Source: Deltaproteobacteria bacterium (GTDB lineage Bacteria > Myxococcota_A > Polyangia > Polyangiales > Ga0077539). Taken from it: 64,000 bases of DNA. The stretch is taken from positions 1 through 64,000 of the forward strand of contig CANJUR010000009.1 in the NCBI GenBank assembly GCA_947477565.1, written 5' to 3'. The notes beneath the pieces are model-generated. The model was not told the origin of the DNA. It saw only the letters and a program-made list of their open reading frames with translations, and did not search any database. Positions within the stretch are counted from its first letter, which is position 1; every line of letters begins with the position of its first letter. Made by a program: the position numbers and the translations under genes. Below, piece by piece: positions 14,345-64,000 of this stretch.

Positions 14345-14359
14345 TGGAGCGATGGATCC

Positions 14360-14920
14360 TTACGGAGGCGACAGCGCGTCGAAGAGCGTCACAACGGGGG
14401 TGCCCGCGGCGAACCCGAGGGCGGGCTCCGCGAGGCTGTCCCCCGCGGCGTTGAGCGAATAGGCCTCCTGCACCCGCCACGCAGCAGCGTCGGTGACGTC
14501 GTCGGAGAGCACCGTGAGGTAGCTGTGCCCCGTCGTGAAACGAGCGCGGCCCGCGGTGCCGACGAAGGGGTTCTCGATGCGCCCCAGCGCGTGACCGGTG
14601 GAGTCGATCTGCGTGACCGCCGTGTGTACGTCGAGGCTCACCCGCACGCCGAGCGGGAGAGCGCGCGCCGCGGACGGCTGCGACGACCGGGAGACCGTCG
14701 CGCCGTACACTGACATCGTCACGCTGACCTCCGCGCCGAGCGCCACTTCCCGCGCTACGCCTTCGTCGAGAACGGTCGCGACCGCGATGGATCCGCGGTC
14801 GGCGAACACCTCCGCCGGGCTCGCTGCGAGGGTCGTCGGTGCCTGCTCCACCCGCACCGGGTCGCCCCCGCAGGACAGCGCCGAGACCGCAGTGAGCGCG
14901 GTGCCCCAGTGACGGATCAC
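14360..14920 (-). CDS. Small lipoprotein of unknown function
   Basis: 186 residues, start overlapping the stop of the PH-domain gene (ATGA). Signal peptide MIRHWGTALTAVSALS-C. The mature chain is beta-rich, with repeated short strands (GSIAVATVLDEGVAREVALG, EVSVTMSVYGATVSRSSQP, GRARFTTGHSYLTVLSDDVT) compatible with an Ig-like or jelly-roll fold. No catalytic motif. Coupling to an inner-membrane PH protein and a large propeller lipoprotein suggests a shared envelope function. Confidence 0.72.
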   Translation of the reverse strand: MIRHWGTALTAVSALSCGGDPVRVEQAPTTLAASPAEVFADRGSIAVATVLDEGVAREVALGAEVSVTMSVYGATVSRSSQPSAARALPLGVRVSLDVHTAVTQIDSTGHALGRIENPFVGTAGRARFTTGHSYLTVLSDDVTDAAAWRVQEAYSLNAAGDSLAEPALGFAAGTPVVTLFDALSPP

Positions 14921-40853: not shown

Positions 40854-40961
40854 TCGAGAATCTCCCGCGCCCGGTCAGGTCGAGCGCTTTCGCGGCCCTA
40901 CCACGACCGTCTCATCGGTGAAACCTTCCGACCGACAAGGCGCATCCCCGTCACCCGTCCG

Positions 40962-41699: not shown

Positions 41700-41841
41700 G
41701 TGATGGTTCCTATCATCTCCGCGTCGGATTGTTGAACCTTTGCCGCGCCCGAAGCGGGGGCCCATCGCAGTGCGCCCCCGGTGGCGTAGGCTCTGCCCCG
41801 GTCACGCGCGCCGGAAGCGCGTCGCCGGTGTGAGGTGAGCG

Positions 41842-42504
41842 ATGCAACGAGTCTTCGTCGATGTAGATACCCAGCACGATTTCTGCCGCCCGGACGGAGC
41901 CCTCTTCGTCCAGGACGCCCCGGCCGCGATGCCCGCCTGCGCCCGCCTCGTGTCGCGCGCGATCGCCGACGGCGTACTCCTCGTGGGATCCGTGGACTCC
42001 CACGCCCACGACGCCTGGGAGTTTGCCGGCAACGGGCGGGTCGGCCCTGCAGGGGAAGATCCGCGGTTTCCGCAGCACTGCGTGAAAGGCACCGCGGGCT
42101 GGCTCAAGCTGCCGGAAACCCTCCCTGCCCGCTTCTACTTCGTCCCCGTGGTGCCCGACCCGGACGCCGCAGCGCGCATCCCCGCGGGCACCCAGGCCGT
42201 GTACTTCGAGAAGGAGGTCTACTCCCTCTTCGCCAACCCCAACGCCGCGCCCGTACTCGACGCGATCACCCCCGCGGGACCCCTTGAGTTCGTGGTCTTC
42301 GGCGTCGCGACGGACTACTGCGTGCGCGCCGCAGCGCTCGGTCTCCAGGACTGGATCGCCGCCCGCCCCGCCCGCGCCGGCTCCCGCGTGGTGGTGGTGT
42401 CCGACGCCATCGCCGCGGTCACCGCCGACGGCGGCAACAAGGCGCTCCGTGATCTCGTCGCCGCGGGTGTCACGCTCGCCCCGAGCGCTGCCATCACGGG
42501 CTGA
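41842..42504 (+). CDS. Isochorismatase-superfamily hydrolase (nicotinamidase-like)
   Basis: 220 residues. The catalytic triad of the cysteine-hydrolase family is visible: Asp in VDVDTQHDF, Lys in YFEKEVYSLF and Cys in GVATDYCVRAA. The HDF plus DSHAHDAWEFA segment fits the metal-binding (D-x-H-x-H) site of nicotinamidases, and the HCVKGTAGW stretch is typical of PncA. The most likely reaction is nicotinamide to nicotinate in NAD salvage; other amides are possible. Cytoplasmic. Convergent with zapA (13 bp between stops). Confidence 0.87.
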   Translation: MQRVFVDVDTQHDFCRPDGALFVQDAPAAMPACARLVSRAIADGVLLVGSVDSHAHDAWEFAGNGRVGPAGEDPRFPQHCVKGTAGWLKLPETLPARFYFVPVVPDPDAAARIPAGTQAVYFEKEVYSLFANPNAAPVLDAITPAGPLEFVVFGVATDYCVRAAALGLQDWIAARPARAGSRVVVVSDAIAAVTADGGNKALRDLVAAGVTLAPSAAITG

Positions 42505-42517
42505 ACCCCACCTGAAT

Positions 42518-42889
42518 TCAGGTCGGCACGGGCTCCTCGAGGACGAGCGCGCGGTCGATCTCCGTAAGCACCTCCGCGATCGCCTCGCGCGCCGACTGCT
42601 CGACCTGGTGAGCATGGGCACGGACGCGCTCGAGTTCTTCCTTCGAGCGAGCCTGCGCTTCTTCAGCGCGGCGGCGTGTGGCGTGAAGTTCGTCTGCGAG
42701 GTCGAGCGCCAGCAGCGCAAGAATCGTCGGCATGCCCGCCCCCTTAGCCGCGCGCTGAATGGTCTCGACGCGCTCGTTGACCATCCCAGCGAGGCGTTCG
42801 ATGTGCTGCGGATCAGCGTGGGCGCTCAGCCGGAGTCGCTGCCCCGCGACCTCCACGGCGACGGTCTGCTTGGCCTGTGTGGTGGACAC
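42518..42889 (-). CDS. zapA: Cell-division protein ZapA
   Basis: 123 residues from GTG 42889. N-terminal ZapA head: VAVEVAGQRLRLSAHADPQH, IERLAGMVNERVETIQRAAK, TILALLALDLADELHATRRR. A long coiled coil (EEAQARSKEELERVRAHAHQ) follows. It stabilises FtsZ protofilament bundles at the midcell ring. It is divergent from the MopE-like gene (43006) across 116 bp. Confidence 0.9.
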   Translation of the reverse strand: MSTTQAKQTVAVEVAGQRLRLSAHADPQHIERLAGMVNERVETIQRAAKGAGMPTILALLALDLADELHATRRRAEEAQARSKEELERVRAHAHQVEQSAREAIAEVLTEIDRALVLEEPVPT

Positions 42890-43005
42890 AATCGAAACTC
42901 AGTACCACAGGTGTTCGACGCCCGCGCGAGCATCGCGGTAGGTCTGTGGCTCTGTTACGGTGCGCGTCCGTCCGCCCTGACGATCGAGCAGAAGGAGCAT
43001 CCGAG

Positions 43006-44478
43006 TTGAAACGCCCCACGGCTCACCGCTGGCTGGTTCTTGGTTCTCTCTCTCTGGTCGCGGCGTGCAGCGCCTCGGGCTCAGCCGACGTCGGCATCTC
43101 GGGACCATTCGGGGTTGATGCCGGCGTGCGCCGCGACGGCGTGGTGATCGATACCGGGCGTCGCGTGGACGTCGGCCGCGAGGTAGACACCGGCCGCCCC
43201 GCGAGTAACGACAGCGGAGCGGCAACCCCCGGCGACGACAGCGGTACCGCCAATCCCAGCAAGGACGGCGGCACCGTCAACCCCGGCTGCGGCGCCCGCG
43301 AGATGTGCGGCAACGGACTCGACGACGACTGCAACGGCATGGTCGACGAGAACTGCCCTTGCGTCCCCGGCATGACCCAGCGGTGCTTCCCCGGCGACCC
43401 CGCTCTCGCGGGCCGGGGGGTCTGCGTCTACGGGACGTCAACGTGCGAGGGCACCGGCGAGTTCGGCACCTGGAGCGAATGCGCCGGCGCCGGCGCGCCC
43501 CGCGCCGTGGAGTGCGGAATGGGAATGGACTTCCGCTGCAACGGCATGGTCGATGAGGGCTGCGAGTGTGCCGTCGGCGCAACCCGCGCCTGCTACACCG
43601 GCCCCGCAGGCACGGAGACCCGCGGATCATGTCGGGCGGGCGCGCAGACCTGCACCGCCATCATGGGCGGCTCGGGCTGGGGCCCGTGCACGGGCGAGAT
43701 TCTCCCCGGCGCGCGCGACCTCTGCGACGGCGTCGATCGCGACTGCAACGGCACCGCAAACGACGGCTGCACCTGCGCCATCGGCGCCAACCGACTCTGC
43801 TACACCGGCCCGGCGGGCACCCCGGGCGTCGGCATCTGCCGCACGGGCACGCAGCCCTGCGTGCGTGGCGCAGACGGCGTGAGCACCGTCTGGGGAGCCT
43901 GCATCAACGAGACGCGCCCCGCTGCGGCGGAGATCTGCGCCAACGGGCTCGACGACAACTGCAACGGCATGATCGACGAGGGCTGTCCCCCGCCGGCCAC
44001 CACCTGCCCGACGGGTCTGCCCCGCTGCGGCACCGTGTGCTGCCCCGCGGGCGAGGCGTGCGCGGCCAACATCTGCGTCGGCAACGGCCAACTGCGCTTC
44101 ACCCTCACCTGGGACGTGATGGGCGATCTCGATCTCCATGTCGTTCCGCCCTGCGGGACGGAGGTCTACTACGGTCGGCTTTCAGCCTGCGGCGGCACCC
44201 TCGACCGCGACTCGTGCCCCGCGCTGCGCGCTACAGACAGCTCCGATCGCTGCAATGGCCCCGAGAACATCTTCTGGCCCGGTACCCCCGCCTCCGGCAC
44301 GTACCTCGTATGCGCCAACCCGTACCAGATGAACAGCGGCAGCACCGCCCGATGGACCATCAACGTCTACCGCGGCGCCATGCTCATCCGGACGTTTACC
44401 GGCACCCGTAATGGCAGCGCGAACTATGTACCGTGCTCCCGCTCCGCCGCCTCGTTTGTCGGCGCCATCACGATCTAG
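43006..44478 (+). CDS. MopE-like lipoprotein with DUF2135-like C-terminus
   Basis: The TTG start at 43006 has AAGGAG at 8-base spacing, giving LKRPTAHRWLVLGSLSLVAA-C as signal peptide. 490 residues. After an Asp/Arg linker come MopE-type units: NGLDDDCNGMVDENCPC, DGVDRDCNGTANDGCTC, NGLDDNCNGMIDEGCPP, interleaved with Cys-rich RACYTGPAGT modules. The C-terminal ~120 residues are a beta-sandwich with the motif GDLDLHVVPPCGTEVYYG and RWTINVYRGAMLIRTFTGT, resembling the DUF2135/YfaP domain. Probably surface-exposed and metal-binding, role unknown. Confidence 0.85.
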   Translation: MKRPTAHRWLVLGSLSLVAACSASGSADVGISGPFGVDAGVRRDGVVIDTGRRVDVGREVDTGRPASNDSGAATPGDDSGTANPSKDGGTVNPGCGAREMCGNGLDDDCNGMVDENCPCVPGMTQRCFPGDPALAGRGVCVYGTSTCEGTGEFGTWSECAGAGAPRAVECGMGMDFRCNGMVDEGCECAVGATRACYTGPAGTETRGSCRAGAQTCTAIMGGSGWGPCTGEILPGARDLCDGVDRDCNGTANDGCTCAIGANRLCYTGPAGTPGVGICRTGTQPCVRGADGVSTVWGACINETRPAAAEICANGLDDNCNGMIDEGCPPPATTCPTGLPRCGTVCCPAGEACAANICVGNGQLRFTLTWDVMGDLDLHVVPPCGTEVYYGRLSACGGTLDRDSCPALRATDSSDRCNGPENIFWPGTPASGTYLVCANPYQMNSGSTARWTINVYRGAMLIRTFTGTRNGSANYVPCSRSAASFVGAITI

Positions 44479-44511
44479 CGACCGCACCTGACGCCCTCAA
44501 CGACTCGGCGC

Positions 44512-45540
44512 TCAGGCCGGGTCGTCGGGCTGCGTCGGCCGCGGACGGCTCTCCCGCAACACCACCCCCAACACCGCCAGCGGATCGAACCCGAGCACCG
44601 CCTGCAGGTCTACCGTCCCGGCGAGGTCGATCACCTTGCGCGTGGTCTTCGCCAGCCAGCCGTCGGCGTCAAACGCCCACCGCCGCGACTCGTCCGCCGC
44701 CGCCCGCAGCGCGCTCACGCCGGTCGCCATCGCCGCCCACGGAGGCATCGGCTCGACCATCACATCGCGCACCGCCAGCGCCTTTGCCCAACTCCCCGGC
44801 GTCTCCGTACGAAGCAACTCGATCACCGTCGCCTCCGGGGCGAAGAGACCCACCGCCACGGGGCCGAGCGAGCGCTCCACCGCCGCGCGAATCACCCGGT
44901 AATCCCGCCGGAAGTCACCGCCCAAAGGCCCCGACCACGCGCGCAGTGACTCCACGCCGTGCACCTGATCGACGACCCCGCCACGCCGACGCACCGCCAC
45001 GCCGCTCACCAGCGTGGGGCCTTCGAAGAGGGCGATCACCGCGGAGTGACCATCGGGCAACACGCGATCCCACGCGGCGCGCACCACCTCCACCGGCGGC
45101 AACGGCAGCGAGCGCAGCGGCGAGGGCAACACGTCGAGCGCGCAGTCGTCGAGTAGCTCGCGCAGCACGCCCAGCGCCAACAGCGTGGTGTCCACCGCGT
45201 CGTCGTCGGTGGTGCAACGACCGCCCACACGCTCCATGAACCGCTCCGCCGCGTCGCGTCGCAGGGCCACCGCGAAGCGCGTGTCGCACTGCGCCGCGAG
45301 GGCCGCGAGGGTGTCCCGGCCGTTCCATGGGCCATCCGTAGCGACCACGCCGCGGAGCGTGTGAAGCGCGCGCAGCACCGTCGTCCCGTCGTGCGCCACC
45401 AGCAGCATTCCCCCGGGCAGCGAGCCGTCCCGCGCGTGGTGCCGCGGCGGCAGCGGCGCCAACCCCGGCGCCACCAGCGACACCAGCCGCGCCCAGCTCC
45501 GCGCGTCCATCCCCGACCACCGCGTCGTGCCGTCAGCCAC
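44512..45540 (-). CDS. Unknown 342-residue protein coupled to GH35-like gene
   Basis: The GTG at 45540, with GAGGAG seven bases upstream, overlaps the end of the upstream gene by 8 bases. Soluble alpha/beta chain without signal peptide: PGGMLLVAHDGTTVLRALHT, AALAAQCDTRFAVALRRDAA, GHSAVIALFEGPTLVSGVAV, DFRRDYRVIRAAVERSLGPV, ending KTTRKVIDLAGTVDLQAVLG. No family recognised. Tight coupling implies it works with the GH35-like protein. Converges with the MopE-like gene. Confidence 0.7.
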   Translation of the reverse strand: MADGTTRWSGMDARSWARLVSLVAPGLAPLPPRHHARDGSLPGGMLLVAHDGTTVLRALHTLRGVVATDGPWNGRDTLAALAAQCDTRFAVALRRDAAERFMERVGGRCTTDDDAVDTTLLALGVLRELLDDCALDVLPSPLRSLPLPPVEVVRAAWDRVLPDGHSAVIALFEGPTLVSGVAVRRRGGVVDQVHGVESLRAWSGPLGGDFRRDYRVIRAAVERSLGPVAVGLFAPEATVIELLRTETPGSWAKALAVRDVMVEPMPPWAAMATGVSALRAAADESRRWAFDADGWLAKTTRKVIDLAGTVDLQAVLGFDPLAVLGVVLRESRPRPTQPDDPA

Positions 45541-46972
45541 CCGCTTGCTCCTCGTCCCGCACCACCACCACCGCCCCTGGCTCCAGTGCGCAAGCCACCG
45601 CGCCGCTCACCGTCACCGTCGCCATTCCGACGTTGGCCAACACCCACGCGCGGCCGTCCGCGGTATCCACCGCGCGCACCATCGCAGCCCCCGCCGGGTC
45701 GAGCGCCACCGCCACGGCATCGTCTGTTTTATCGTCACTGGTAAACGTCGGCGCCCACGCTTCGCCCGCCGCCACCGCCGTCGATTCCAGCGCGTCGGCC
45801 CCGACCGGCGTCGCGGAGAGTTCGTCGAGAGAGAAGCCCCAGCGCGAAAGCCACGAGAGGGGCAGCGCGCCAAACACTGCGCCCGCCCGTGCTCGAGCGA
45901 TGGCCTCCGGGGAGCGCGCAATGCGCCGGCCGCGCTCGACCCCGGCGGGGAGCCCCGCCGCCCATCCGAGCAGCGCCTGCCAGCGCGTCGCCGCCTGCCG
46001 GGGCTCGCCCTGCTCATCGAGAATCGCCCCCACCCAGTCTCCTCCAGAACACCCATGGAGCACGGTGATGTCCCGCGCGCCCGCGCCGAGCGCCACCCGC
46101 GCGCAATCGATGGCGTCCGTGGCGCGCGAGGGCACCTCCAGCGGCGCGTGGCCCGCCCTCAGGTCGAGGTGGTGACCGTGCACCAGCGTCGTGGCCAACC
46201 GCGCGTCGCGCCAGATCGCTCGCACCCCGGCCCGCGACGGTGGCGCCGCCCACGCGAGCCCCTCCGTCAACGCCAACACCGCCGCCGCCGCGGACGCCAG
46301 CGGATCACCCTGAATCGCCAGGCGCAGCGCCGCAGCGGGGGCCCCGGACTCCCGCGCAACGCTCGCCAGTCCGAGGAGAAACGAGCGCGTGACCTCGGCC
46401 TCCTCCGTCGCCGGGTCTACCGTCGCGAGGTCCACCCCTGCGGCGTCGGGGTCGTCCGGAGCGTCGCGCAGCAGCGTCGGCGCACCGTGGCCCAGCAGCA
46501 CCCGGGCGATCACGTCGGGCCCGGACGACCCGGCGACGGCGGCACCGACGGCAGAGCGAATCCAGGCCCGCGCAGCCGTGTTGTAGGTCTCGCTTCGCAG
46601 CGACGGGAGCGGCACCACCCGCAGATGGTCGCTCACCCAACGAGGGTTGCGGCGACGGGTGTGCGACCGCACCGCGGGGTCGCGCAGTACGCCCTCGGGT
46701 ATGCCGAGCCCCTCGACGTCAACGCCGGCCCACGGGCCCAGGCGAAGCACCGCGCGAGCGCCCGCGTCGCCGATGATGCGCAAGAGCGAAGCGAGGTCGT
46801 GGGCGAGGCGGGCGTCGTCAGGGCCACCGTCGCGCCCGGCGTACTCGCGCCAGATCAGAGGCAGGTCGATGGCGTTGAAGCCGAGCGCAACAAGGGTGCG
46901 GACAGCCTTGGGCCAGCGCGAAGGATCAACACGGGTGAAACGCAGCGAGGCGGCGCGAATCGGGGCTTCCAC
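45533..46972 (-). CDS. GH35-like (beta/alpha)8 protein, probably inactive
   Basis: 479 residues without signal peptide. The N-terminal third follows the glycoside-hydrolase 35 scheme: RFTRVDPSRWPKAVRTLVAL GFNAID (helix then 'LGxNaI'), HDLASLLRIIGDAGARAVLR, LGPWAGVDVEGLGIPEGVLR (GPYicaEwe.GGlP in true beta-galactosidases), then NPRWV. The substrate-binding 'E' is replaced (VDVEG), and no NE acid/base motif appears in the expected region (VIARVLLGHGAPTLLRD), so it is likely a pseudoenzyme or a divergent hydrolase. The C-terminus resembles a beta-sandwich (AMVRAVDTADGRAWVLANVG). Starts 65 bp upstream of the minus-strand neighbour end. Confidence 0.68.
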   Translation of the reverse strand: MEAPIRAASLRFTRVDPSRWPKAVRTLVALGFNAIDLPLIWREYAGRDGGPDDARLAHDLASLLRIIGDAGARAVLRLGPWAGVDVEGLGIPEGVLRDPAVRSHTRRRNPRWVSDHLRVVPLPSLRSETYNTAARAWIRSAVGAAVAGSSGPDVIARVLLGHGAPTLLRDAPDDPDAAGVDLATVDPATEEAEVTRSFLLGLASVARESGAPAAALRLAIQGDPLASAAAAVLALTEGLAWAAPPSRAGVRAIWRDARLATTLVHGHHLDLRAGHAPLEVPSRATDAIDCARVALGAGARDITVLHGCSGGDWVGAILDEQGEPRQAATRWQALLGWAAGLPAGVERGRRIARSPEAIARARAGAVFGALPLSWLSRWGFSLDELSATPVGADALESTAVAAGEAWAPTFTSDDKTDDAVAVALDPAGAAMVRAVDTADGRAWVLANVGMATVTVSGAVACALEPGAVVVVRDEEQAGG

Positions 46973-47036
46973 GGCGGCGGACCCTACGACCTCCAGGCAG
47001 TGATTGTGAAGGGCGCACCCGCGCCGCCATGGGCGA

Positions 47037-47660
47037 TCACACGCGACGCCAGCGGCCGCTGTCGTGATCGAAGTGCAAGAGCATCTCGCGCAGGCCGTCG
47101 GTGCGCACGAGGAAGTGGGTGACCCCCTCCTCGTGGAGTACGCCGAGCACCTCGAGCACCTCCCGGCGCACGCCGCGCTCGATCACCGCAACCGGACGGA
47201 GCGGTCCCGCGGTCGGCGCACGCGCCTCGACCTCGAAGTCCGCCGGGTCGCCCCCCAGGCCCGCCGCGGCGCGAAGGATCTGGGCGGTCTCCGCGAGGCG
47301 CTGTCCAGCGCGGGCGCGAGGGAGGGTCCCTTCGATGACCAGCACCACGTCGAGGCCGTCGCCGACGTGGCGGGTCAGCACAGAGCGGCGATGGCCGACC
47401 ACCCAGAGTGCCAACACCTCCCCGAGGCCCGTCTTGCGGGCGAAAACCCGGGCGAGGTGCAGCGGCAGAGACAGCACCGCACCCGCGATGCGCGCCTCGA
47501 ACGGATCGACCCGCGCCGCCAGATCGACAGCCTCGCCCTCGTCGTCGATAAACGTCGCGCTCTCCGCCTCCGGGATGGCGTCTACCAGGGCTTCCAGGGC
47601 CTCGGTGAAGCCCGTGACGTCGAGCCTCCGAGCGTGCATCGCAGGGCGCCGCGCGGTCAT
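47037..47660 (-). CDS. Roadblock/LC7-like protein
   Basis: 207 residues from ATG 47660, seven bases after the SurA-like stop. The early part fits a Roadblock/LC7-type small GTPase regulator: FTEALEALVDAIPEAESATF, IDDEGEAVDLAARVDPFEAR, then VLALWVVGHRRSVLTRHVGD and LDVVLVIEGTLPRARAGQRL. The second half is a separate alpha/beta segment (AVIERGVRREVLEVLGVLHE, THFLVRTDGLREMLLHFDHD). In myxobacteria such proteins partner MglA-type GTPases; no GTPase is adjacent here. Last gene of a coupled four-gene unit. Confidence 0.6.
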   Translation of the reverse strand: MTARRPAMHARRLDVTGFTEALEALVDAIPEAESATFIDDEGEAVDLAARVDPFEARIAGAVLSLPLHLARVFARKTGLGEVLALWVVGHRRSVLTRHVGDGLDVVLVIEGTLPRARAGQRLAETAQILRAAAGLGGDPADFEVEARAPTAGPLRPVAVIERGVRREVLEVLGVLHEEGVTHFLVRTDGLREMLLHFDHDSGRWRRV

Positions 47661-47667
47661 CGGTCGC

Positions 47668-48597
47668 TTACGGTGCGCGGCGCGCGAGGCGCTCGACCTG
47701 CTGCAGTGCCGCCTCGCGAATCTGCACCCGCCGCTGTTGTCGCAGGCCCAGCACAAGCGAACGAGCACCCTCCGCGCGGGCCCGCTGGATGAGGTCGGCG
47801 CGCACGAGGGTCCGAGCCTCGTCGTCGGTGCGCGTCAGCGGGGCGATCTCTTCCAACAGCAGCGCCACGTGGACACCAAACGACGTCACGAAGGGCTCGG
47901 ACAGGGGCTCCGCCGCGCTGAGCGCCCAACCCGCCTCGGCGAAGGCCGGGACATATACCGACGCACTCGTGGTGCGACCCTGGCGATCGAAGGGCTCGAG
48001 GTCCTCCACCCGCACGTCGGCGCCGCCGTGGAGGCGCTGCGTCGCGGCGCGAAACTGCTCCGCCGTCGGGTGCCCCACGGTCGCAGCCAGGAGGTCGTCG
48101 CGGAAGGTCTGCATCCGGGCGAGCGCGGCCTCGTTCTGGGTGACGCCCGCGTCGGCGGGGACGGTCCAGACGACGTGCACCACCCTGCGCAGTCCGCGGT
48201 GTGCAAGCTCGGCGTGCCGCGCCTCGAACGCAGCCGTGACGACCGCCGGCGGGAGCACTGCTTCGGAGAAGCGCGCCTCGACTTGACGCGCCAGCAGCAG
48301 TTGGATGCGCGCGCGCCACGCGTCGTCGGCGATCTCCACCGGACCCGCGAGGCCCGAGCGCCGGGCCTCGACGGCGAGCAGGGCGTCCGCCACGAGAAGA
48401 TCGAGCGCGGCGCGTGGCGTCACCCGTCGCTCGGCGGCGACCGCGGCGATGTCACCCTCGGTGAACGCGAGGTCCCCGACACGCGCGACCACCGCTCCGC
48501 TGCGGGGCGAGAGATCGACCGCCGCGGGCGGGCGCGGCCCCGGGTCACACCCCACGGCCATGAGCAGCGCGAAGACTGCGCCGAGCCGCGGGTTCAC
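47668..48597 (-). CDS. SurA-like peptidyl-prolyl isomerase lipoprotein
   Basis: 309 residues from GTG 48597 overlapping the stop of the preceding gene. Signal peptide VNPRLGAVFALLMAVG-C. SurA-like N-terminal helical chaperone region (AAVAAERRVTPRAALDLLVA, DALLAVEARRSGLAGPVEIA), a long helix, and a parvulin-like core represented only weakly (HVVWTVPADAGVTQNEAALA, FDRQGRTTSASVYVPAFAEA, PFVTSFGVHVALLLEEI), so PPIase activity is uncertain. Role: periplasmic folding of outer-membrane proteins. Third SurA/PpiC-like protein in this window. Confidence 0.75.
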   Translation of the reverse strand: MNPRLGAVFALLMAVGCDPGPRPPAAVDLSPRSGAVVARVGDLAFTEGDIAAVAAERRVTPRAALDLLVADALLAVEARRSGLAGPVEIADDAWRARIQLLLARQVEARFSEAVLPPAVVTAAFEARHAELAHRGLRRVVHVVWTVPADAGVTQNEAALARMQTFRDDLLAATVGHPTAEQFRAATQRLHGGADVRVEDLEPFDRQGRTTSASVYVPAFAEAGWALSAAEPLSEPFVTSFGVHVALLLEEIAPLTRTDDEARTLVRADLIQRARAEGARSLVLGLRQQRRVQIREAALQQVERLARRAP

Positions 48598-48809
48598 TCA
48601 GCGCTCTCCGGTCGCACCAGCTCCAGGCCTGCGTGCGAGATGAACCACCCGACGAAGCCCGCGAGCAGGGCGGAGACGTAGTCCCGTTGGTCGAGCGCCC
48701 GCAGCGCCTGCCAGTACGGCACCAGCGCGCACCCCAGCAGCGCCAGCCCCACCACCCGGACAGCCCAACGGAACGCGATCGTGATGGCAGACGGCTTCAG
48801 GACACTCAC
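48594..48809 (-). CDS. Small two-helix membrane protein
   Basis: 71 residues from GTG 48809. The GTGA at the upstream end overlaps the membrane protein stop and the downstream end overlaps the SurA-like start. Two hydrophobic helices: AFRWAVRVVGLALLGCALVP and YVSALLAGFVGWFISHAGLE. Small inner-membrane protein embedded in a fully coupled operon, so expression is assured; function unknown. Confidence 0.7.
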   Translation of the reverse strand: MSVLKPSAITIAFRWAVRVVGLALLGCALVPYWQALRALDQRDYVSALLAGFVGWFISHAGLELVRPESAE

Positions 48810-49510
48810 CTCGCGTGGTCGAGCCAGTATCGCATGGCAAACGCCACCGTCGCCGCGCAGAGATAGAACCATGCGCGAGCCCCGGAGCGCGACGGAGCCT
48901 CGACGCGGCGAAGCAAGGCGCCCCCGGCGACGAAGGTCCAGAGAACGGCGAGGCTGAGGCCGCCGGCGGTGACCAACGCGAGCCGCCCCCGGAGCAGGGC
49001 CGCGCCGCCGCCGAGTCGAAGCGTCGCCGCGCGCGACACTCCGAGGGGCGCGACGACCGCCAACGTCAGCGCCACTGCGATGAGCGCGACGAGCCCGACG
49101 CCACGCAACAGCGGCGCCGGGACCAGGCCCACTTCGGACACGGTGCCCGCGACGACCACCGTGGCGACACGCTCGCGAGCGCCCGACCACGACCACGCCG
49201 CCGCGGCCATAAACGCCGCCATCGTCGCGACCACCACGGCCTGCCCGGGCGCGTCGTAGCGCGTCGCTGCCACGGCCACCGCGCACGCCGCGAGGCCCAT
49301 CGGAAACGCGCCCGCGTAGAGCAGAAGCGCCCTCGCCGGGCGGTCCGTGGAGGCGTGGAAGCCTCCCCCGAGCGCCGCCAGCGGAGGCACCGCCAGCAAG
49401 CACGAAACAACCGACGCGTGGCGCGTGAGCAGCGGGATGAGCGCGAGCTGTATCCAGCAGGCGACCCCGAGGACGGGAGTCAGGATTCTGGGGGCGAAGC
49501 GCGGGTCCAC
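48806..49510 (-). CDS. Polytopic membrane protein, unknown
   Basis: 234 residues (GTG 49510). Six or more hydrophobic helices: ILTPVLGVACWIQLALIPLL, VVSCLLAVPPLAALGGGFHA, LLLYAGAFPMGLAACAVAVA, VVVATMAAFMAAAAWSWSGA, GVGLVALIAVALTLAVVAPL, LALVTAGGLSLAVLWTFVAG. No transporter motif seen. First gene of the coupled unit ending at 47037; its start is 63 bp from the divergent kinase gene. Confidence 0.68.
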   Translation of the reverse strand: MDPRFAPRILTPVLGVACWIQLALIPLLTRHASVVSCLLAVPPLAALGGGFHASTDRPARALLLYAGAFPMGLAACAVAVAATRYDAPGQAVVVATMAAFMAAAAWSWSGARERVATVVVAGTVSEVGLVPAPLLRGVGLVALIAVALTLAVVAPLGVSRAATLRLGGGAALLRGRLALVTAGGLSLAVLWTFVAGGALLRRVEAPSRSGARAWFYLCAATVAFAMRYWLDHAR

Positions 49511-49573
49511 GGCGGTGATTGGCGCAACCTAACAGCTTCCGGCGCATCCGCGGCGCTGCTAACCTCCGGGGCC

Positions 49574-52639
<3,066 letters not shown>

Positions 52640-52660
52640 GGAGGTGCGGGCGGGGTTTCG

Positions 52661-53356
52661 TTACGGGAGCTTGATCGCCGCGAGAGCCTTGCCGAAGCGG
52701 ACGAGGTCGGCGTCGGCGACCGGCGGAAAGAGGTTGTTCGCGCGGCGGCGGGTCGGGGCCAGCGCAGGGAGCCGGGCCTTCGTGAGGGCGGCGACGATGG
52801 CCCGCGCCGTCGGATCAGCGGGCTGCGCGGCGCTCCGGCGCTTCGGTCGCTTCGCGCGGGCGGCGGCGCGCATTTCGTCGGTGGTCAGCGTCGGGAAGAG
52901 CACCGTCTCGTTGGAGCGACCGCGCCGCACGACGACGCGCGTCCGGGCCGGATCGATGGCGACGCGCGGTAGCTCGCCGTTGACGGCCTCCAGGTAGTCG
53001 AGGAGAGCCGCGAGCGAGGTGATCCCGTGCGCGGCTTCGTGCGCCGCGGTGAAGTGCCGCGCGACGCGCGTGGAGTCCCGCACCGTCTGCAAATGAACCC
53101 CCGGCAGGTGCTTCGCGCAGAACGCCTTCACCGTCTTGAAACCGCCCGCGAGATACAGCGGCGGATCGTGCAGGAGGACGCGATCGACGGCCTCCCATTT
53201 CGCGTCCCAGTGGACGGACTCCACGACCCCTTCGCCCGCGATGGTGCGCGCCGCGGCCTTCCACTGAGCATCGAGCTTGCGGTCGATGAGCGCCGCCGGA
53301 CTCAGATCAGCGACCGGCGGACGGAGCTTCTTCGAGACCCTGGTTGCGTGTGTCAT
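52661..53356 (-). CDS. Unknown 231-residue protein
   Basis: ATG 53356 after a weak ribosome site. Soluble, basic and helical: VSKKLRPPVADLSPAALIDR, AKWEAVDRVLLHDPPLYLAG, TVKAFCAKHLPGVHLQTVRD, VARHFTAAHEAAHGITSLAA, LLDYLEAVNGELPRVAIDPA and a Lys/Arg-rich end (AARAKRPKRRSAAQPADP). The distribution of basic residues suggests nucleic-acid binding, but no fold is recognised. The 5x22 bp repeat array begins 45 bp upstream of its start and could contain its promoter. Confidence 0.6.
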   Translation of the reverse strand: MTHATRVSKKLRPPVADLSPAALIDRKLDAQWKAAARTIAGEGVVESVHWDAKWEAVDRVLLHDPPLYLAGGFKTVKAFCAKHLPGVHLQTVRDSTRVARHFTAAHEAAHGITSLAALLDYLEAVNGELPRVAIDPARTRVVVRRGRSNETVLFPTLTTDEMRAAARAKRPKRRSAAQPADPTARAIVAALTKARLPALAPTRRRANNLFPPVADADLVRFGKALAAIKLP

Positions 53357-53400
53357 CGGGGCGATCGTGACAGCCCGGGGAGGTCGCGCGCAATCGTCGG

Positions 53401-53510
53401 CTTCTGCGCGTGACGGAGTCCGCTTCTGCGCGTGACGGAGTCCGCTTCTGCGCGTGACGGAGTCCGCTTCTGCGCGTGACGGAGTCCGCTTCTGCGCGTG
53501 ACGGAGTCCG
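53401..53510. repeat. Five perfect 22-bp direct repeats
   Basis: Five identical, contiguous 22-bp units beginning CTTCTGCGCGTGACGGAGTC, without spacers. Each unit contains the short palindrome CGGAGTCCG at the unit junction. Located between the divergent gene at 53356 and the interrupted Cys-rich gene, whose frame begins in the array. Perfect identity implies very recent expansion or active maintenance. Confidence 0.95.
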
Positions 53511-54385
53511 TCGTCACCGCATGGCCCTCGCGACCGCGAGGCTGTGAACTGCACCCATGCACTGGATGCGGCGCGTCCCTGTCGTTGCCTGCCGCGGACG
53601 GTAGCGCGGACGGCGGCGTCGCCACGGACACGCCGATCGTCGTCGATGGTCCCGTGTCGATGGACGTGACCACCACCACCGACGTCGGACCGCCGCCCGG
53701 GTGCCCGCTTCCCGGCGGTGGGCTCTGTCCGGTCGGCGCGCAATGTCCCGCGGGCGACGGCTGCAACACCTGTTCGTGCGGTAGCAACGGGCTGCTCGCG
53801 TGCACTGAGCTCGGCTGCCCGCAGGACGCCGACGCGCCGTAGTGCCGCAGCGCCACCGACTGCCCCGCGGGCCAGATCTGCGACGGCCCCCGGGGCTGCG
53901 CCACCCCGTGGAACCGCCGCCCGCAGACGGAGCCCTGCACCCGCGACCTCGTCTCCCGGTGCGGCTGCGACGGCGCAGAATTCCAGGCGTGCTCGACCTG
54001 CCCGGGACGCCCGTTTCTACACCCAGCCACGTGCGCGACGACGGTCGTGTCGTGCACCCTCCGAAGCGGCGCACGCTGCCCCGTCGGGATGACCTGCCCC
54101 GCGGGCGACGGCTGCACCGACTGCACCTGCTCCGATCCGGGAATGCCCCTCTGCACTGCGCGACCATGCGCCTTCGACGCCGGACCGCCGCGGCCCGGGT
54201 GTTCTTCCGCCATCGACTGCCCCGCGGGCGAGGAGTGCGCCGTGAGCGCGGGCTGCTGCGGAGTGTGCGCCGACTTCATCAGGTGCGGCCCCATCCCGTG
54301 CGATGCGGCCGTCACTGGGTTGCAGTGCCCTACCGGCACCCTCTGCAACGCGAGCACCCCTGCCTGGCAGATCGCTTCGGTCTGA
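53498..54385 (+). pseudogene. Cys-rich exoprotein gene broken by in-frame TAG
   Basis: One reading frame runs from 53498 to 54385, interrupted by a single TAG at 53840-53842. The protein-like sequence continues on both sides (...GCPQDADAP, stop, then CRSATDCPAGQICDGPRGCA and later MTCPAGDGCTDCTCSDPGMP). A CAG-to-TAG change would explain it. Repeats of CPAGDGCNTCSCG / CPAGDGCTDCTC type on either side show it was one gene. The usual signal peptide is missing in this frame; a partial one (ATG 53557, MHWMRRVPVVAC) is in another frame, suggesting a second, frameshift lesion near the start. Likely a decayed secreted protein. Confidence 0.72.
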
Positions 54386-54474
54386 CGACGCCCGGAGAGC
54401 GATCCGTCGCCGAAATATTCTCTCGACCCCCTCACTTTTCGTGATGTGGGGCACCGCGGCTTCCAAATGAGGGC

Positions 54475-54600
54475 ATGAGTAACCGTTCTCCGAAGGGCCG
54501 AGCCCCGGATCTCGTCGTGTCGGCTAGATATGCTGGTAAGCGCAAACGCGGCGGAGTGACGCCCTCGCCCGCGCACCTCGCGCCCGCGGAAGGCCGCTGA
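54475..54600 (+). CDS. Small basic ORF coupled to membrane-protein cassette
   Basis: 41 codons, ATG 54475 behind GAGGG, stop TGA overlapping the ATG of the next gene (TGATG). The predicted peptide is strongly basic (MSNRSPKGRAPDLVVSARYA, then GKRKRGGVTP). The overlap with the first paralogue makes a leader peptide or small partner plausible. Too short for composition statistics to decide. Confidence 0.42.
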   Translation: MSNRSPKGRAPDLVVSARYAGKRKRGGVTPSPAHLAPAEGR

Positions 54601-55577
54601 TGATCACCGAAGCATCGGAGGTCCAGTCGCCGATCGCGCGGGCGGGCAGGCTCTGCGCAGACTTCTATTGGCCCTTCGCAACAGACCCCTCGCAACACAC
54701 TGAAGGGACTGAACCTCCTCTCGTGATGATGGCCGAAGGATTCCTCGGCGGCAGGCAGCGCTCGGGGCCGTCGATGTCAGCACTCTTCCGCCCCGGAGTC
54801 GCCGCAAGCGTCGTGGTGTTCGGGTGGGCTGCGCTCGTCCCCTTCCTCGCGATGGTCGGCGACGTGTGGGTCTTCTTGCCGCACAAGCGCATCGAATTCA
54901 TACGCGTGACCCTGCGGCAGCGAATCGTTGGAATCCGGCTCGGGGTGCCCGCAGTCGCTTGGATAGCAACGATGATTGCGGGCTTCGTCGTTGCCTCGGG
55001 AATCATGGCTATCGCCCACAACAGCACGAACTTCGAAATGGTGGCGAGGCTCTTGAAGGTCGCGACGACGGCCGTCGCAGCGACCTGGTTTTTTGCAAAC
55101 TGGCGTCTACTCAACGCAGTCCGACACCAGGGGGACGCTCTGTTTCGCTCGATCGTACGGTGCGATTACGGGTTCCCGACGAAAACACTGCTTATCGAAG
55201 GCAGTTCGGACGGGAGCCGGGAGGAACAACTTGAAAATATCTCCCAACTGCTAGCGCGAGCGGGAGAGTTCACGCTCGCTTCCTGGGGCCGGGTCAACGT
55301 GAACCGTGGCGGTTCAGGCCCCCTATCTCCCCTGTTGGGGTCCGGTGGTTCTGGTCGCAGCCGCCTGCGAACTTTCGCACTGATCGCATTGGTTTTGAGC
55401 GGCTTGGGCATGGCAGCGAAGGCGGCCGTGGCCGCAGTTGAGGGTGGCTTGAGCCGCCAGCTTCTTCGGTCACTCCCTGGTTGGCTCTCGATGCGTTCTG
55501 TGCGCCCGCGCGCGCGCAGCGCCGACGTTGATATGGAACAGCTGCCCACACCACCGGGACTCGATGAGCCCGAGTAG
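54600..55577 (+). CDS. Membrane protein of a tandem paralogue family (1 of 3)
   Basis: 325 residues. Begins MITEASEVQSPIARAGRLCA, then ADFYWPFATDPSQ, GGRQRSGPSMSALFRPGVAA and a helix pair (AASVVVFGWAALVPFLAMVG; VAWIATMIAGFVVASGIMAI). The domain core reads VWVFLPHKRIEFIRVTLRQR and, later, DYGFPTKTLLIEGSSDGSRE. A last helix (TFALIALVLSGLGMAAKAAV) precedes a short cytoplasmic tail. The same blocks recur in the genes at 55686 and 56551. Third-position GC is lower than in the flanking genes. No known family recognised. Confidence 0.72.
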   Translation: MITEASEVQSPIARAGRLCADFYWPFATDPSQHTEGTEPPLVMMAEGFLGGRQRSGPSMSALFRPGVAASVVVFGWAALVPFLAMVGDVWVFLPHKRIEFIRVTLRQRIVGIRLGVPAVAWIATMIAGFVVASGIMAIAHNSTNFEMVARLLKVATTAVAATWFFANWRLLNAVRHQGDALFRSIVRCDYGFPTKTLLIEGSSDGSREEQLENISQLLARAGEFTLASWGRVNVNRGGSGPLSPLLGSGGSGRSRLRTFALIALVLSGLGMAAKAAVAAVEGGLSRQLLRSLPGWLSMRSVRPRARSADVDMEQLPTPPGLDEPE

Positions 55578-55685
55578 CGGTCGACAGCTTCGGCCCCAAC
55601 ACGAGCGGCCACTACTCGCTGAATATCCTCTGATTGCTCCGAGGATTCGCCAACCCCGATTTACGAACCGACAAGCGATAAAACC

Positions 55686-56531
55686 ATGAATCAGCCACTT
55701 CGCCCTTCTCCACTCGACCTCGCCTCAAACAATCCCCCATCAACTCCGCGGTCGCCGCCTTCGGTGCCGGATGGCGTCCATGCCCCTAATTTCGATGCCG
55801 GACTGTCGGACGGTGGTCCGGTATCAGGTCCAGCGTCGGCGCCGGCTGGGCGCGCTGTCCAAGGCGCATTCGATGGGGTTGCGCGAACCTTCGTCGAGCT
55901 AGTGTCCCCCGAAGCCGCGGACGAACTTCGGCGTATTCCCGGCGGTGCCGTGATCCTCGGCACGCGCATCGTCGGCGGTCGCGTCGAGATCGGCGCGCCC
56001 CTCAGCGCGCTACTTCGTCCTGGGATGGCCCTTGGGATCATCCTCTTTGGATGGGCCTACGCCGCGGTCATCTTGCGCAACGCTTCCAGTCTCTGGACCT
56101 TTGTCCCCGATAGGAGAACAGAGTTCGTCCGGTTCCAGTTGTCGGAGTCCGTCTCCTGGCGTCGCGTGCTCCCGGCGCTAGCCCTCTCCATCACAGTCGG
56201 CATCTCGATCTTTGTAATCCTTGGTCTCCTGGGGGCGGTTATCACACCCTTGTTCCTCCTTGTGGCTCCGACCCTGGCCTGGCTTGGATGCAACGTTGTT
56301 GCCCTCCTCGGCCTGCGGGACGCCATCCCACGACTGCTCACTTCGCGCCTGACGATGGAGTACGGATTCCCAACAAAGACGACGCTCCTCGACCTGGCGT
56401 GCGACGCCAACGCCAACTCTCTCCTTCCTCACATCGAGCAAGTCGCAGGGGTCCTCGATGGCTTCGGCTCATGGAACCACCTGAGCGTCCACGGAGGCGC
56501 TGCCGTGTCCGTCGTGATGAAGCAGTCCTGA
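55686..56531 (+). CDS. Membrane protein of the tandem paralogue family (2 of 3)
   Basis: 281 residues. A Pro-rich, low-complexity N-terminus (LDLASNNPPSTPRSPPSVPD) replaces the ADFxxPFATDP block. The shared core follows: TRIVGGRVEIGAPLSALLRP, GMALGIILFGWAYAAVILRN, WTFVPDRRTEFVRFQLSESV, two more hydrophobic stretches (ALSITVGISIFVILGLLGAV; FLLVAPTLAWLGCNVVALLG) and MEYGFPTKTTLLDLACDANA. Ends shortly after a small beta segment (HLSVHGGAAVSVVMKQS). 108 bp after the first paralogue, which lies well within operon distance. Confidence 0.72.
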   Translation: MNQPLRPSPLDLASNNPPSTPRSPPSVPDGVHAPNFDAGLSDGGPVSGPASAPAGRAVQGAFDGVARTFVELVSPEAADELRRIPGGAVILGTRIVGGRVEIGAPLSALLRPGMALGIILFGWAYAAVILRNASSLWTFVPDRRTEFVRFQLSESVSWRRVLPALALSITVGISIFVILGLLGAVITPLFLLVAPTLAWLGCNVVALLGLRDAIPRLLTSRLTMEYGFPTKTTLLDLACDANANSLLPHIEQVAGVLDGFGSWNHLSVHGGAAVSVVMKQS

Positions 56532-56550
56532 CTCTCCGAGAGCCCACGCC

Positions 56551-58023
56551 ATGAACACCGCATACTCCCCGCAGCCGTCAGTCTACTTACGAGCAGGCAC
56601 GGTCCTCGCGGACTTCTTCTGCCCATTCGCTACGGATCCAGCACACAACCGCGCGGACACTCAGGCGCCGGTCCTCGACCTGGGTGACAACATCGTTGGA
56701 GGACGAACGCGCCTCGGTCCGTCCGTCGATTCTCTGCACCGCACCGGCCTCGCCGCGAGCGTCGTGGTGTTCTCCTGGGGAGCACTTCTCGCCTTCCTCA
56801 GCCAAGTCGGCGACCGCTGGATGTTCATCCCTTCCGAGCGCACGGAACTCATCTGCGTGAGACTCCGCCAGAACATCGTCCGGGAACGCCTCCGGGCGGC
56901 ATTCGTGACCTGGCTGGCGATGCTCGTCCTCGGTCTGGTCGTGTGCGCTGTCATCGCCTTGGCAGCAACGTCTGCGGATAACCCACAAACCGCGCAGTAC
57001 GGATTCGCCGGGGCGGCGCTCGTCCTGGCCTCGACCTGGTTTGGCAGCAACTGGTCACTCTTGCGACGCGTGCGTTCGCTCGGAGAGGCATTGTTTCGTA
57101 CGTCGGTCTGCTTCGAATACGGATACCCGCAGAAGACGACTATCCTCGACGTCGTCTCGGACGGAGGCCGCGACGAACAACTCACGCGCGTGCGCGAACT
57201 ATTCGCCCGTTTCCGCGACTGCGACTTCGCCGAGTGGGACCAGGCCACTCTCGACGGTACGAGCGGCGCGGGAGGATCCGCCTTCGGTGCGGGAGGCAGT
57301 GAGGTGGCAAAGCATATCCTCCGTGCAGGCACCATTCTCGGTGTCGTCGGTCTCCTCGCGCGGTTCGTACTAGTGCCAGGGGCGAGTTGGGCCGCCTATC
57401 GATTCCGCCCCGCGCCACCAGTCGCGGTGACGGACATCGGGTGCGCCACGAACGCCACTTCGATGAACGTCTGGGTGGGAAGAAGCATGAACTTCCGCTG
57501 CCCGCCTTGCGCCACACCCGCGCGCCTCGTCGGCGGCCCGCTGTATGAGATCTCTTCGTCGATCTGCAGCGCCGCGGCACATGGTGGAGTGATCGATGCC
57601 ACACGAGGCGGTTCGGTGCGCGTACTCGGCAGCACGCCTCCTCCCTACGCCGGGAATGTGGCGCCCTACGCGTCCAGCATGAGTAACCGGATCACTTCCG
57701 AGATGATGTTTAGCGGCAACAACGCCTTCGAGGTGTTGCCCCTCCCGGGTGCGGAGCTTGCGGTGTCGGTAGCGCAAATGCGCGCCGAGCAAGAAGCGGA
57801 GACGCGGCGTCTGGAAGCTGCGGCGGAGGCAAGACGCGCGGCCGCGGCAGAGGAAAGGCGCGCGGCCGCCGCGCAGGCGGCAGAAGCATTACGCGCAGCG
57901 AATGAAATGCTCGCAGCGAGGGCGGCGCAGCAAGCACTTGAAGCGCCTCCTGAGCCTGAAGTAGCGGCCCCCGTAGAAGAAACCTCGACGGGCTCTCGAC
58001 ATCACCGGCATCGGCACGACTAG
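56551..58023 (+). CDS. Paralogue 3 of 3 with LCCL domain and coiled coil
   Basis: 490 residues. Shared N-terminal core (ADFFCPFATDPAH at ~20, NIVGGRTRLGPSVDSLHRTG, WMFIPSERTELICVRLRQNI, FEYGYPQKTTILDVVSDGGR) with four hydrophobic helices. Residues ~298-386 then match an LCCL domain: C298, C317-PP-C320, SSSIC339SAAAHGGVID and GGSVRVLGSTPPPYAG. After that come an Ala/Glu/Arg coiled coil (~402-460) and a tail ending RHHRHRHD. LCCL modules are mainly known from eukaryotic extracellular proteins, so its topology here matters: it lies after the last predicted helix. 19 bp after paralogue 2. Confidence 0.78.
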   Translation: MNTAYSPQPSVYLRAGTVLADFFCPFATDPAHNRADTQAPVLDLGDNIVGGRTRLGPSVDSLHRTGLAASVVVFSWGALLAFLSQVGDRWMFIPSERTELICVRLRQNIVRERLRAAFVTWLAMLVLGLVVCAVIALAATSADNPQTAQYGFAGAALVLASTWFGSNWSLLRRVRSLGEALFRTSVCFEYGYPQKTTILDVVSDGGRDEQLTRVRELFARFRDCDFAEWDQATLDGTSGAGGSAFGAGGSEVAKHILRAGTILGVVGLLARFVLVPGASWAAYRFRPAPPVAVTDIGCATNATSMNVWVGRSMNFRCPPCATPARLVGGPLYEISSSICSAAAHGGVIDATRGGSVRVLGSTPPPYAGNVAPYASSMSNRITSEMMFSGNNAFEVLPLPGAELAVSVAQMRAEQEAETRRLEAAAEARRAAAAEERRAAAAQAAEALRAANEMLAARAAQQALEAPPEPEVAAPVEETSTGSRHHRHRHD

Positions 58024-58104
58024 GGCATCTACCCGAACACCCGCGGGTCGTCCGCATCTGATCTTGGAACTCAGTCCATCGACCAGCCGCCCCCCTGACG
58101 CCGC

Positions 58105-62559: not shown

Positions 62560-62859
62560 GTGAGCGCCGCCCACTGGACGATCTACCTGCTGCGCTGCGC
62601 CGACGACTCGCTCTACGCGGGCATCACGTCGGATCTGCCTGCGCGACTGGCCGCGCACAACGCCGGGCGGGGTGCGAAGTACACCCGGGGAAGGCTGCCG
62701 GTGACGGTGGCGTGGTCGCGCGGAAGGCAGCCCCCGACGGTGGCGCGACGCCTGGAGTACGCGCTGAAACAACTCTCGCGGGCAGACAAGCTCAGGCTGG
62801 TGGACGGCGACGCGGCGCTCTGGCGGCGGGTGCGGCGAGACACGCTCGGAGCAACCTGA
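62560..62859 (+). CDS. GIY-YIG nuclease-domain protein (YhbQ-type)
   Basis: 99 residues from GTG 62560 (GAAGGA four bases upstream). Stand-alone GIY-YIG domain: [20 protein letters not shown] (the GIY and YIG strands appear as IYLLRC and YAGIT), the catalytic Arg in [20 protein letters not shown], and the Glu-bearing helix [18 protein letters not shown]0213/YhbQ-type proteins of this size are found widely; proposed roles in DNA repair are not firmly established. It is not inside an intron or intein. Confidence 0.9.
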
Positions 62860-62902
62860 ACGGTTGCGTCGCGGAGGCGGTCAGTGCAAATAGCCGCCCG
62901 CG

Positions 62903-64000
62903 ATGATCACCCTCGAGAGCCTCAGCAAGCGGTTTGGTCCGAAGGTCCTGTTCGAAGACGTGTCGATGATCTTCGACCCGGGCAAGCGGTATGCGCTGGT
63001 CGGGGCCAACGGCGCGGGGAAGTCCACGCTGCTGCGGGTGATCGCGGGGGAAGAGGAGTCCGACAAGGGGTCGATCAACATTCCCGTGCGGCTCAAGGTC
63101 GGCGTGCTCCGGCAGGATCACTTCCACTTCGACGCCTTCCGCATCGTTGACGTCGTGATGATGGGCAACAAGGCCCTCTGGGACGCGATGCAGGAGAAGG
63201 AGACCATCTTCGCCGGCGAGATGACCGACGAGGCCGGCATGCGCCTCGCCGAACTTGAGGGCGTCGTCGCGGAGGAGGACGGCTACACGGCCGACGCGCG
63301 GGCCGCCGAGTTGCTCGAGGGCCTCGGGATTCTCACGGCGCAGCACAACGACCGGCTCGACTCGCTCGCGGGCGGCTACAAGCTCCGCGTACTGCTGGCG
63401 CAGACGCTCTTCGCGGGCGCCGACGTACTGATGCTCGACGAGCCCACCAACCACCTCGATCTGGACTCCATCCGCTGGCTCGAGTCGTACCTGACCAACG
63501 ACTTCCGCGGAACGCTCCTGGTGGTCAGCCACGATCGTCACTTCATGAACTCCATCGCCACGCACGTGGCCGACGTCGATTTCCAGACGGTCACTGTCTA
63601 CACGGGCGACTACGCGGATTTCGTCGAGCAGAAGACCACCGGCAAGCGCCAGGGCGAGCAGGACATCGCGCAGAAGAAGAAGCGCATCGCGGAGCTCAAG
63701 GAGTTCGTGGCGCGCTTCGGCGCGAGCGCCAACCGGTCGAGCCAGGCGCAGTCGCGGGTGAAGGAGATCGACAAGCTCGAGGCCAGCATGGTGGTGCGGC
63801 GGTCGAGCGTGGTGCGGCCGTACGTGAAGTTCGAGGTGGCGCGGCCGTCGGGTCGCGACGTGCTGCGCGCGACGGGGCTCTCCAAGCACTTCGGCGACAA
63901 GCAGGTGTTCAAGGACTTCAGCTTCAACATGATGCGCGGCGAGCGCCTCGCGGTGATCGGCCCGAGCGGCATCGGCAAGTCCACGCTGCTCAAGATGCTC
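62903..64000 (+). CDS. ABC-F ATPase, YbiT-like (C-terminus beyond the window)
   Basis: The frame starts at ATG 62903 and is open at base 64000; 366 codons are visible. First ABC domain: Walker A GANGAGKST, LRQDHFHFDAFRIVDVVMMG (Q-loop region), signature LAGGYKLRVLLAQTLF, Walker B VLMLDEPTNHLDLDSI and the switch His in VVSHDRHFMNSIATHV. The interdomain linker matches the YbiT type (AQKKKRIAELKEFVARFGAS). The second domain is just starting (Walker A GPSGIGKST). The whole visible protein aligns in order with E. coli YbiT, an ABC-F ribosome-associated factor. No membrane domain, as expected. Confidence 0.94.
   Translation, partial: MITLESLSKRFGPKVLFEDVSMIFDPGKRYALVGANGAGKSTLLRVIAGEEESDKGSINIPVRLKVGVLRQDHFHFDAFRIVDVVMMGNKALWDAMQEKETIFAGEMTDEAGMRLAELEGVVAEEDGYTADARAAELLEGLGILTAQHNDRLDSLAGGYKLRVLLAQTLFAGADVLMLDEPTNHLDLDSIRWLESYLTNDFRGTLLVVSHDRHFMNSIATHVADVDFQTVTVYTGDYADFVEQKTTGKRQGEQDIAQKKKRIAELKEFVARFGASANRSSQAQSRVKEIDKLEASMVVRRSSVVRPYVKFEVARPSGRDVLRATGLSKHFGDKQVFKDFSFNMMRGERLAVIGPSGIGKSTLLKML

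Follow-up and report, generated by a model that had tools for sequence, protein, structure and literature searches.

A rare cassette of three paralogous predicted membrane proteins with a shared core and differing C-terminal ends in a Polyangiales genome

The LCCL domain is familiar chiefly from innate immunity in animals and from malaria parasites, and membrane receptors that combine a constant membrane or cytoplasmic part with a variable outer domain form a known general kind. Two articles describe LCCL proteins as interacting with bacterial cell-wall components, lipopolysaccharide (LPS) or sulfated glycans (PMC10892792, PMC9333281), the animal proteins having signal peptides and the plasmodial ones lacking transmembrane domains (PMC10892792). 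A literature search pairing the LCCL domain with myxobacteria yielded no paper in the library covered. Here we describe a locus in a 64,000-nucleotide stretch (hereafter the window) of a Deltaproteobacteria bacterium of the order Polyangiales (assembly GCA_947477565.1, contig CANJUR010000009.1, positions 1 to 64,000), in which three consecutive genes encode the related predicted membrane proteins P1, P2 and P3 (Table 1). We propose, tentatively and as a possible rather than a probable reading, that P1-P3 assemble into a membrane complex whose exchangeable ligand-binding domains are predicted to lie on the outer side of the cytoplasmic membrane.

An earlier note, made from the letters of the window, had held that one membrane core is common to the three genes, and their homology indeed lies far beyond chance: with P3 as query, the genome of the window yielded P1 (E = 1e-58, 43% identity) and P2 (E = 6.4e-18, 28%), together with one small LCCL protein on contig C97 (E = 7.8e-6), matched mainly via its LCCL domain. 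The core motifs listed at that time are present, with corrections in detail: GG[RT] ends in R in P1, P2 and P3 alike, and P3 has D in place of the S of this first motif and E in place of R/K in W-x-F-x-P-x-[RK]. YG[FY]PxKT had been put forward as the best candidate functional site, a suggestion that was not borne out, as only 4 of the 18 columns invariant across an eight-sequence alignment fall within it (Y, G, P and K); the others include GGR..G, W90, P94, R113, N167, D204 and W229 (P1 numbering).

Besides P1-P3, this alignment comprises three proteins recovered from protein clusters (P0002, P0007 and P0008) and two from a second genome. Scanning genome contigs with profile A5 gave one locus, on the 7,037-base contig SYFR01000330.1 (G155:C281) of Myxococcales bacterium isolate F1-60-MAGs079, a metagenome-assembled genome (MAG); the same scan with profile A2 gave no relative. 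On the minus strand of the MAG locus (L028), a P1-type gene at 3937-2861, whose start was taken as the first ATG of a frame opening at 4012, is followed after 39 bp by a P2-type gene at 2821-2039, in the same order as P1 and P2 in the window. Homologues are thus not always singletons, since the two types adjoin in a second genome. A tree of the eight sequences separates the P1-types (P1, P3, P0002 and the MAG P1-type) from the P2-types (P2, P0007, P0008 and the MAG P2-type) at 100/100, and joins P1 with P0002 at 94/95, without resolving how this pair, P3 and the MAG P1-type branch from one another. The cores are 38-58% identical among P1-types, 43-94% among P2-types and 21-28% between types. 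Tree and identities together argue against recent copies, in agreement with the initial view of diverged paralogues, and P3 is probably an old P1-type paralogue rather than a fresh copy. The window genome and the MAG belong to different families of one order; as the types separate at 100/100, they are probably older than the split of these two bacterial families.

LCCL and PPC are known modules; the core matched no family in the libraries searched. Pfam and NCBIfam gave nothing above cut-off for P1, P2 or the P3 core, and the same was true of five related proteins in Pfam and three of these in NCBIfam; the only core rows were weak, namely YccS (E = 0.24, P1), JAMP (E = 0.1, P0008) and bc1_QcrA_actin (E = 0.2, P0007). 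PADLOC models matched none of 7 proteins at E up to 1, PHROGs held nothing better than E = 0.06 for the family, and PDB sequences gave nothing better than E = 0.16 against a six-core profile. Foldseek at E <= 0.001 returned no match in PDB for either of two structure models, nor in BFVD for the P1 model, the models being weak (predicted local distance difference test, pLDDT, 63.5 and 68.6). Since no library places the core, the claim of an unplaced family stands. The core could still belong to a known family that is too diverged for sequence searches or low-confidence models to reveal, for profile searches have little power when only 8 sequences are available. Nothing convincing appeared for the core in six libraries, however, and its motifs match no family known to us, so that we regard such hidden kinship as doubtful. 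It concerns ancestry rather than function and is compatible with the other explanations considered below, and the probabilities that we attach to the alternatives therefore need not add up to one.

Three further candidates were tried and rejected. Flotillin-like FloA matched P3 at residues 375-451 only, behind the LCCL domain, with 12.2 bits against a cut-off of 34, and a Radial_spoke_3 match to P3 was below cut-off. An internal repeat made of the WxFxP and YGFPxKT hairpins ranked at best 203rd of 16,653 pairs of scored protein segments, 2.2 standard deviations above the mean; the top-scoring pair lay at P1 residues 42 and 103.

The two types differ in what follows the core. All four P1-types have a fourth hydrophobic stretch and then a tail; in the four P2-types the helix-4 columns hold 2-4 residues and the tail columns are empty. 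Both structure models, though weak, place the elements in one order: one or more helices at the N-terminus, the GGR beta-hairpin, a hydrophobic helix with a kink, the WxFxPxxR beta-hairpin, a long hairpin of helices, the YG[FY]PxK beta-hairpin and a helix, with one more helix in P1. In 7 of the 8 proteins no lysine or arginine (K/R) occurs in loop 2, which links helices 2 and 3, and loop 1 contains 4-7 K/R in all eight, a pattern that would put loop 1 on the inside together with the YG[FY]PxK region, and the P1-type tail on the outside. The same helices could be read as a small transporter, channel or export apparatus, with three to four helices per subunit forming a pore and the tails serving as gates or docking sites, a reading that we consider improbable.

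The tails themselves differ among the P1-types. An LCCL domain had been noticed in the last protein, and a search confirmed it, in P3 only (PF03815, 41 bits against a cut-off of 22.6; E-values in Table 1); the P3 tail has four cysteines, and a CPxC-like pair and the segment SSIC.AA.H.GVI align with cochlin. With P3 as query, matches were found in 9 of 13 genomes of the window's bacterial family, the window genome included. Twelve LCCL-match loci were read out, and 8 gave a frame with LCCL domains; at the remaining four (L005, L006, L010 and L011) a longer antisense frame was taken instead. By eye, 7 of the 8 frames have a lipoprotein-like, hydrophobic start ending in Cys. The tail of P0002 matched open reading frames (ORFs) in 12 of the 13 family genomes (E from 1.6e-8 to 8.9e-4), and in all three that were scanned a PPC domain lies inside the matched region, two above cut-off and the third (L089) just below it (24.5 bits against 25.9). 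P0002 and its tail alone have no Pfam match of their own, and the link to PPC (PF04151) runs via these intermediates only. The MAG P1-type has a short Cys-rich end. Because LCCL and PPC modules elsewhere in the bacterial family stand on exported-looking proteins, the P1-type tails are probably outside, and the LCCL domain of P3 is probably extracellular, given its exported-looking relatives and the charge pattern.

As a separate observation on the LCCL-bearing loci of the window's family, two or three LCCL domains accompany the lipoprotein-like starts at L007, L008, L009, L012, L017, L020 and L021.

Modules of this kind would also serve a structural envelope anchor, whose outer tails tether the inner membrane to the cell wall or the outer membrane and which passes no signal inward. 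LCCL and PPC are binding-type modules, the long Ala/Glu/Arg-rich stretch of P3 could span the periplasm, and no signalling domain was matched in any scanned member. The invariant residues, however, sit in the core and the P2-types are tail-less, which would suit a working core better than a passive hook, and we consider anchoring possible but unlikely.

Display of outer domains by a membrane complex is supported by tails that vary on a constant core, by the conservation of the gene pair and by the exported-looking proteins on which LCCL and PPC otherwise stand. In such a complex, P2, which has neither helix 4 nor a tail, would be the common scaffold subunit, to which P1-type subunits would attach by way of the core that they share with it; helix 4 would give these one more membrane crossing and leave their tail exposed outside. 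In P3 the outer part would be LCCL with a probable coiled coil, in P0002 the PPC-like domain, and in the MAG protein the Cys-rich end. An envelope component would be bound by the tail; going by the LCCL partners reported in the articles cited above, an envelope glycan or lipid would be the likeliest ligand. The conserved predicted beta-hairpins (GGR..G, WxFxPxxR and YG[FY]PxK) may relay the binding state to a cytoplasmic partner or hold the complex together. Conservation of the core is what would favour sensing over mere anchoring.

A number of observations weigh against the proposed display complex. The interaction of P1, P2 and P3 is putative, and the structure models, built from 8 sequences, are weak also in predicted template modelling score (pTM 0.50 and 0.59, beside the pLDDT values given above). 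No signalling or catalytic domain was matched in the members scanned against Pfam and NCBIfam, with kinase, GGDEF, MCP and anti-sigma domains all giving no match. The charge pattern is mixed: the K/R of loop 1 are almost offset by acidic residues in the P2-types (4+/4- in P0007, for example), the stretch that follows helix 3 carries little net charge, loop 2 of P0002 contains 2 K/R, and 3 K/R of P1 fall inside the span assigned to helix 3; helix 1, with K/R on both flanks, may span the membrane or dip back, so that the N-terminus could lie on either side. The tail of P1 is only 45 residues long, and the Cys-rich end of the MAG protein was unmatched in the other 7 of 8 genomes searched. The gene pair was seen in only one further genome, and P0007, being 94% identical to the MAG P2-type, may represent the same lineage. 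None of the 12 other genomes of the window's bacterial family has the protein family (three of them are 64-81% complete), and the neighbours of the window locus and of the MAG locus show no evident functional link.

Within the data searched, the protein family is real but rare. Some 5.8 billion clustered proteins were searched three times, the 7,994-7,997 candidates with most shared words being scored each time; besides the window's own proteins, only P0002, P0007 and P0008 were gained among the candidates scored. P1 and P3 belong to 90%-identity clusters for which 11 and 10 contigs, respectively, are listed, so the cassette is not a single assembly accident. An order-wide genome search gave matches at E <= 0.01 in 3 of 183 genomes, those in the window genome and the MAG being real, and a class-wide search gave these two genomes among 317. 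In a sample of 377 genomes of the phylum, 2 matched, the window genome and a second that proved spurious; the MAG has no row in this sample and was probably not drawn. Phages and plasmids searched with P1, and viral contigs searched with profiles A5 and A2, gave no relative. Absent from the 12 other family genomes, the protein family is dispensable in the window's bacterial family.

Two genomes were rejected as members: the third order-wide match (G078, E = 0.00997) lies in an antisense frame, and the second match in the phylum sample (G364, E = 0.0067) is spurious and lies in a frame that we take to be a DAHP (3-deoxy-D-arabino-heptulosonate 7-phosphate) synthase.

Horizontal acquisition, suggested by the earlier note, is supported by both an empty site and a shift in G+C content at third codon positions (GC3). 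Window 40128-52637 aligns at 81.7% to 2775-15325 of locus L074 in a genome of the same genus (G009), and the alignment resumes at window 58104 with L074 15348, leaving 22 bp in G009 where the window has 5,466 bp. Since the 12 other family genomes are without a match, gain is a simpler account than repeated loss. In G011, the sequence to the right of the insert directly joins window 44516 of a block (44516-52635) that is inverted there, and the cassette is missing from both junctions of this block; the contig of G012 ends 95 bp into the arrangement seen in G011, and the right flank was aligned only in part in G007, of another genus, which is therefore uninformative for the empty site. P1, P2 and P3 have GC3 values of 0.715, 0.706 and 0.725, visibly below their neighbours, as first remarked: of 11 measured frames that lie outside the insert, 9 have 0.84-0.90, and the two lower ones are 45527-47122 (0.765) and 62792-63889 (0.658). 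The left part of the insert (52661-54385) has a host-like GC3 of 0.85-0.88, so that the insert looks composite, host-like on the left and foreign-looking on the right from about 54400. The shift is much smaller in the MAG, whose pair has 0.80 against 0.81-0.90 in its neighbours.

These features could point to a selfish or defence-type cassette on a mobile element, without a house-keeping role, which would fit the patchy presence of the family (no true match but the window genome in the phylum sample of 377), the inserted stretch with its empty site and the lower GC3. It agrees less well with the lack of any PADLOC match in 7 proteins, of a phage or plasmid match for P1 and of a viral-contig match for the two profiles, as well as with the smaller GC3 shift of the MAG pair; nor was an integrase or transposase recognised among the insert frames, although no dedicated search was made. 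We judge such a cassette to be quite unlikely.

In the surroundings, block 44516-52635 is inverted in G011, and probably in G012 judging from its 95 bp, relative to the window genome and G009, with one breakpoint at the cassette site; the junction seen in G011 and G012 makes this site a rearrangement breakpoint as well. At the left end of the insert, a minus-strand gene to which we assign no function (52661-53359) has more matches in its own genome (contigs C193 and C41), is matched in 7 of the 12 other genomes of the family, with as many as 10 matches in one genome, and looks like a dispersed multicopy gene. A 22-bp unit is repeated 5.2 times at 53396-53510 and recurs, with up to 2 mismatches, on C133 (6 copies), C32 (2) and C69 (1). 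Beside this array, 53498-54385 holds a Cys-rich, lipoprotein-like frame with an in-frame TAG at 53840-53842, perhaps a decaying gene, whose part after the TAG matches 2 of the 12 other family genomes. The G+C content by codon position of 62792-63889 is 0.915, 0.423 and 0.658, and the listed frame may not be the true gene.

Within the cassette, the four ORFs were found where they had been placed, all on the plus strand, and the claimed operon-like spacing (a 1-base overlap, 108 bp and 19 bp) was likewise recovered. The small basic ORF is an open frame as described, but its standing as a coding member of the cassette was not upheld, there being no visible counterpart in the 600-base stretch upstream of the sole relative locus, read in three frames; its GC3 is 0.667. 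No sigma-70 promoters were found, and terminator-like sites numbered 3 against 2.1 in shuffles.

Table 1. Coordinates of the insert, the cassette genes and their parts in the window.
Feature	Coordinates	Strand	Basis or remark
Stretch of 5,466 bp without counterpart at the collinear same-genus site	52638..58103	.	Alignment to G009 locus L074
Small basic ORF, 41 aa	54475..54600	+	ORF list; coding status doubtful
P1, P1-type predicted membrane protein, 325 aa	54600..55577	+	Short C-terminal tail
P1 shared core	54639..55319	+	
P1 YGFPTKT	55167..55187	+	
P1 hydrophobic helix 4, residues 259-277	55374..55430	+	Predicted
P2, P2-type predicted membrane protein, 281 aa	55686..56531	+	Pro-rich N-terminus; core forms the C-terminal end
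P2 shared core	55881..56528	+	
P2 YGFPTKT	56361..56381	+	
P3, P1-type predicted membrane protein, 490 aa	56551..58023	+	LCCL, Ala/Glu/Arg-rich stretch and His-rich end
P3 shared core	56590..57285	+	
P3 YGYPQKT	57118..57138	+	
P3 hydrophobic helix 4, residues 256-274	57316..57372	+	Predicted
P3 LCCL domain, residues 298-390	57442..57720	+	PF03815, E = 2.2e-10; best PDB match cochlin 1jbi, E = 0.002
P3 Ala/Glu/Arg-rich stretch, residues 407-464	57769..57942	+	Putative coiled coil; limits from the sub-threshold Radial_spoke_3 match
P3 GSRHHRHRHD end	57991..58020	+	

A wider and more speculative proposal, which we hold to be doubtful, is that the locus represents an undescribed two-subunit transmembrane platform of myxobacteria-like bacteria with a new fold, in which a tail-less P2-type is combined with an ectodomain-bearing P1-type carrying unrelated outer modules (LCCL, PPC-like or Cys-rich), and which would spread as a small cassette, conferring a new glycan- or lipid-sensing surface in one step. 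If true, bacteria would have a new means of mounting outer domains interchangeably on their membrane, in which the division between scaffold and display subunit is old. The direct biological reach is probably small, given the rarity of the family in what was searched.

Compared with known systems, P3 resembles LCCL proteins such as Limulus factor C, cochlin and LGL1 in its above-cut-off PF03815 match, but it differs from the animal and plasmodial proteins in having the LCCL domain placed behind a bacterial membrane core of several helices. Multi-LCCL proteins from the window's bacterial family share domain and lineage with P3, but the 8 that were read out look secreted or lipoprotein-like, carry between one and three LCCL copies and lack this core. 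The tail of P0002 is like PPC (PF04151) proteins in matching PPC-carrying regions of exported-looking proteins, but there the domain is attached to a new core and has no Pfam match of its own. A more general likeness is to membrane receptors, through a constant core and a variable, probably outer C-terminal module; unlike these, the cassette proteins match no kinase, GGDEF, MCP or anti-sigma domain and come as two protein types, one of them without an outer part.

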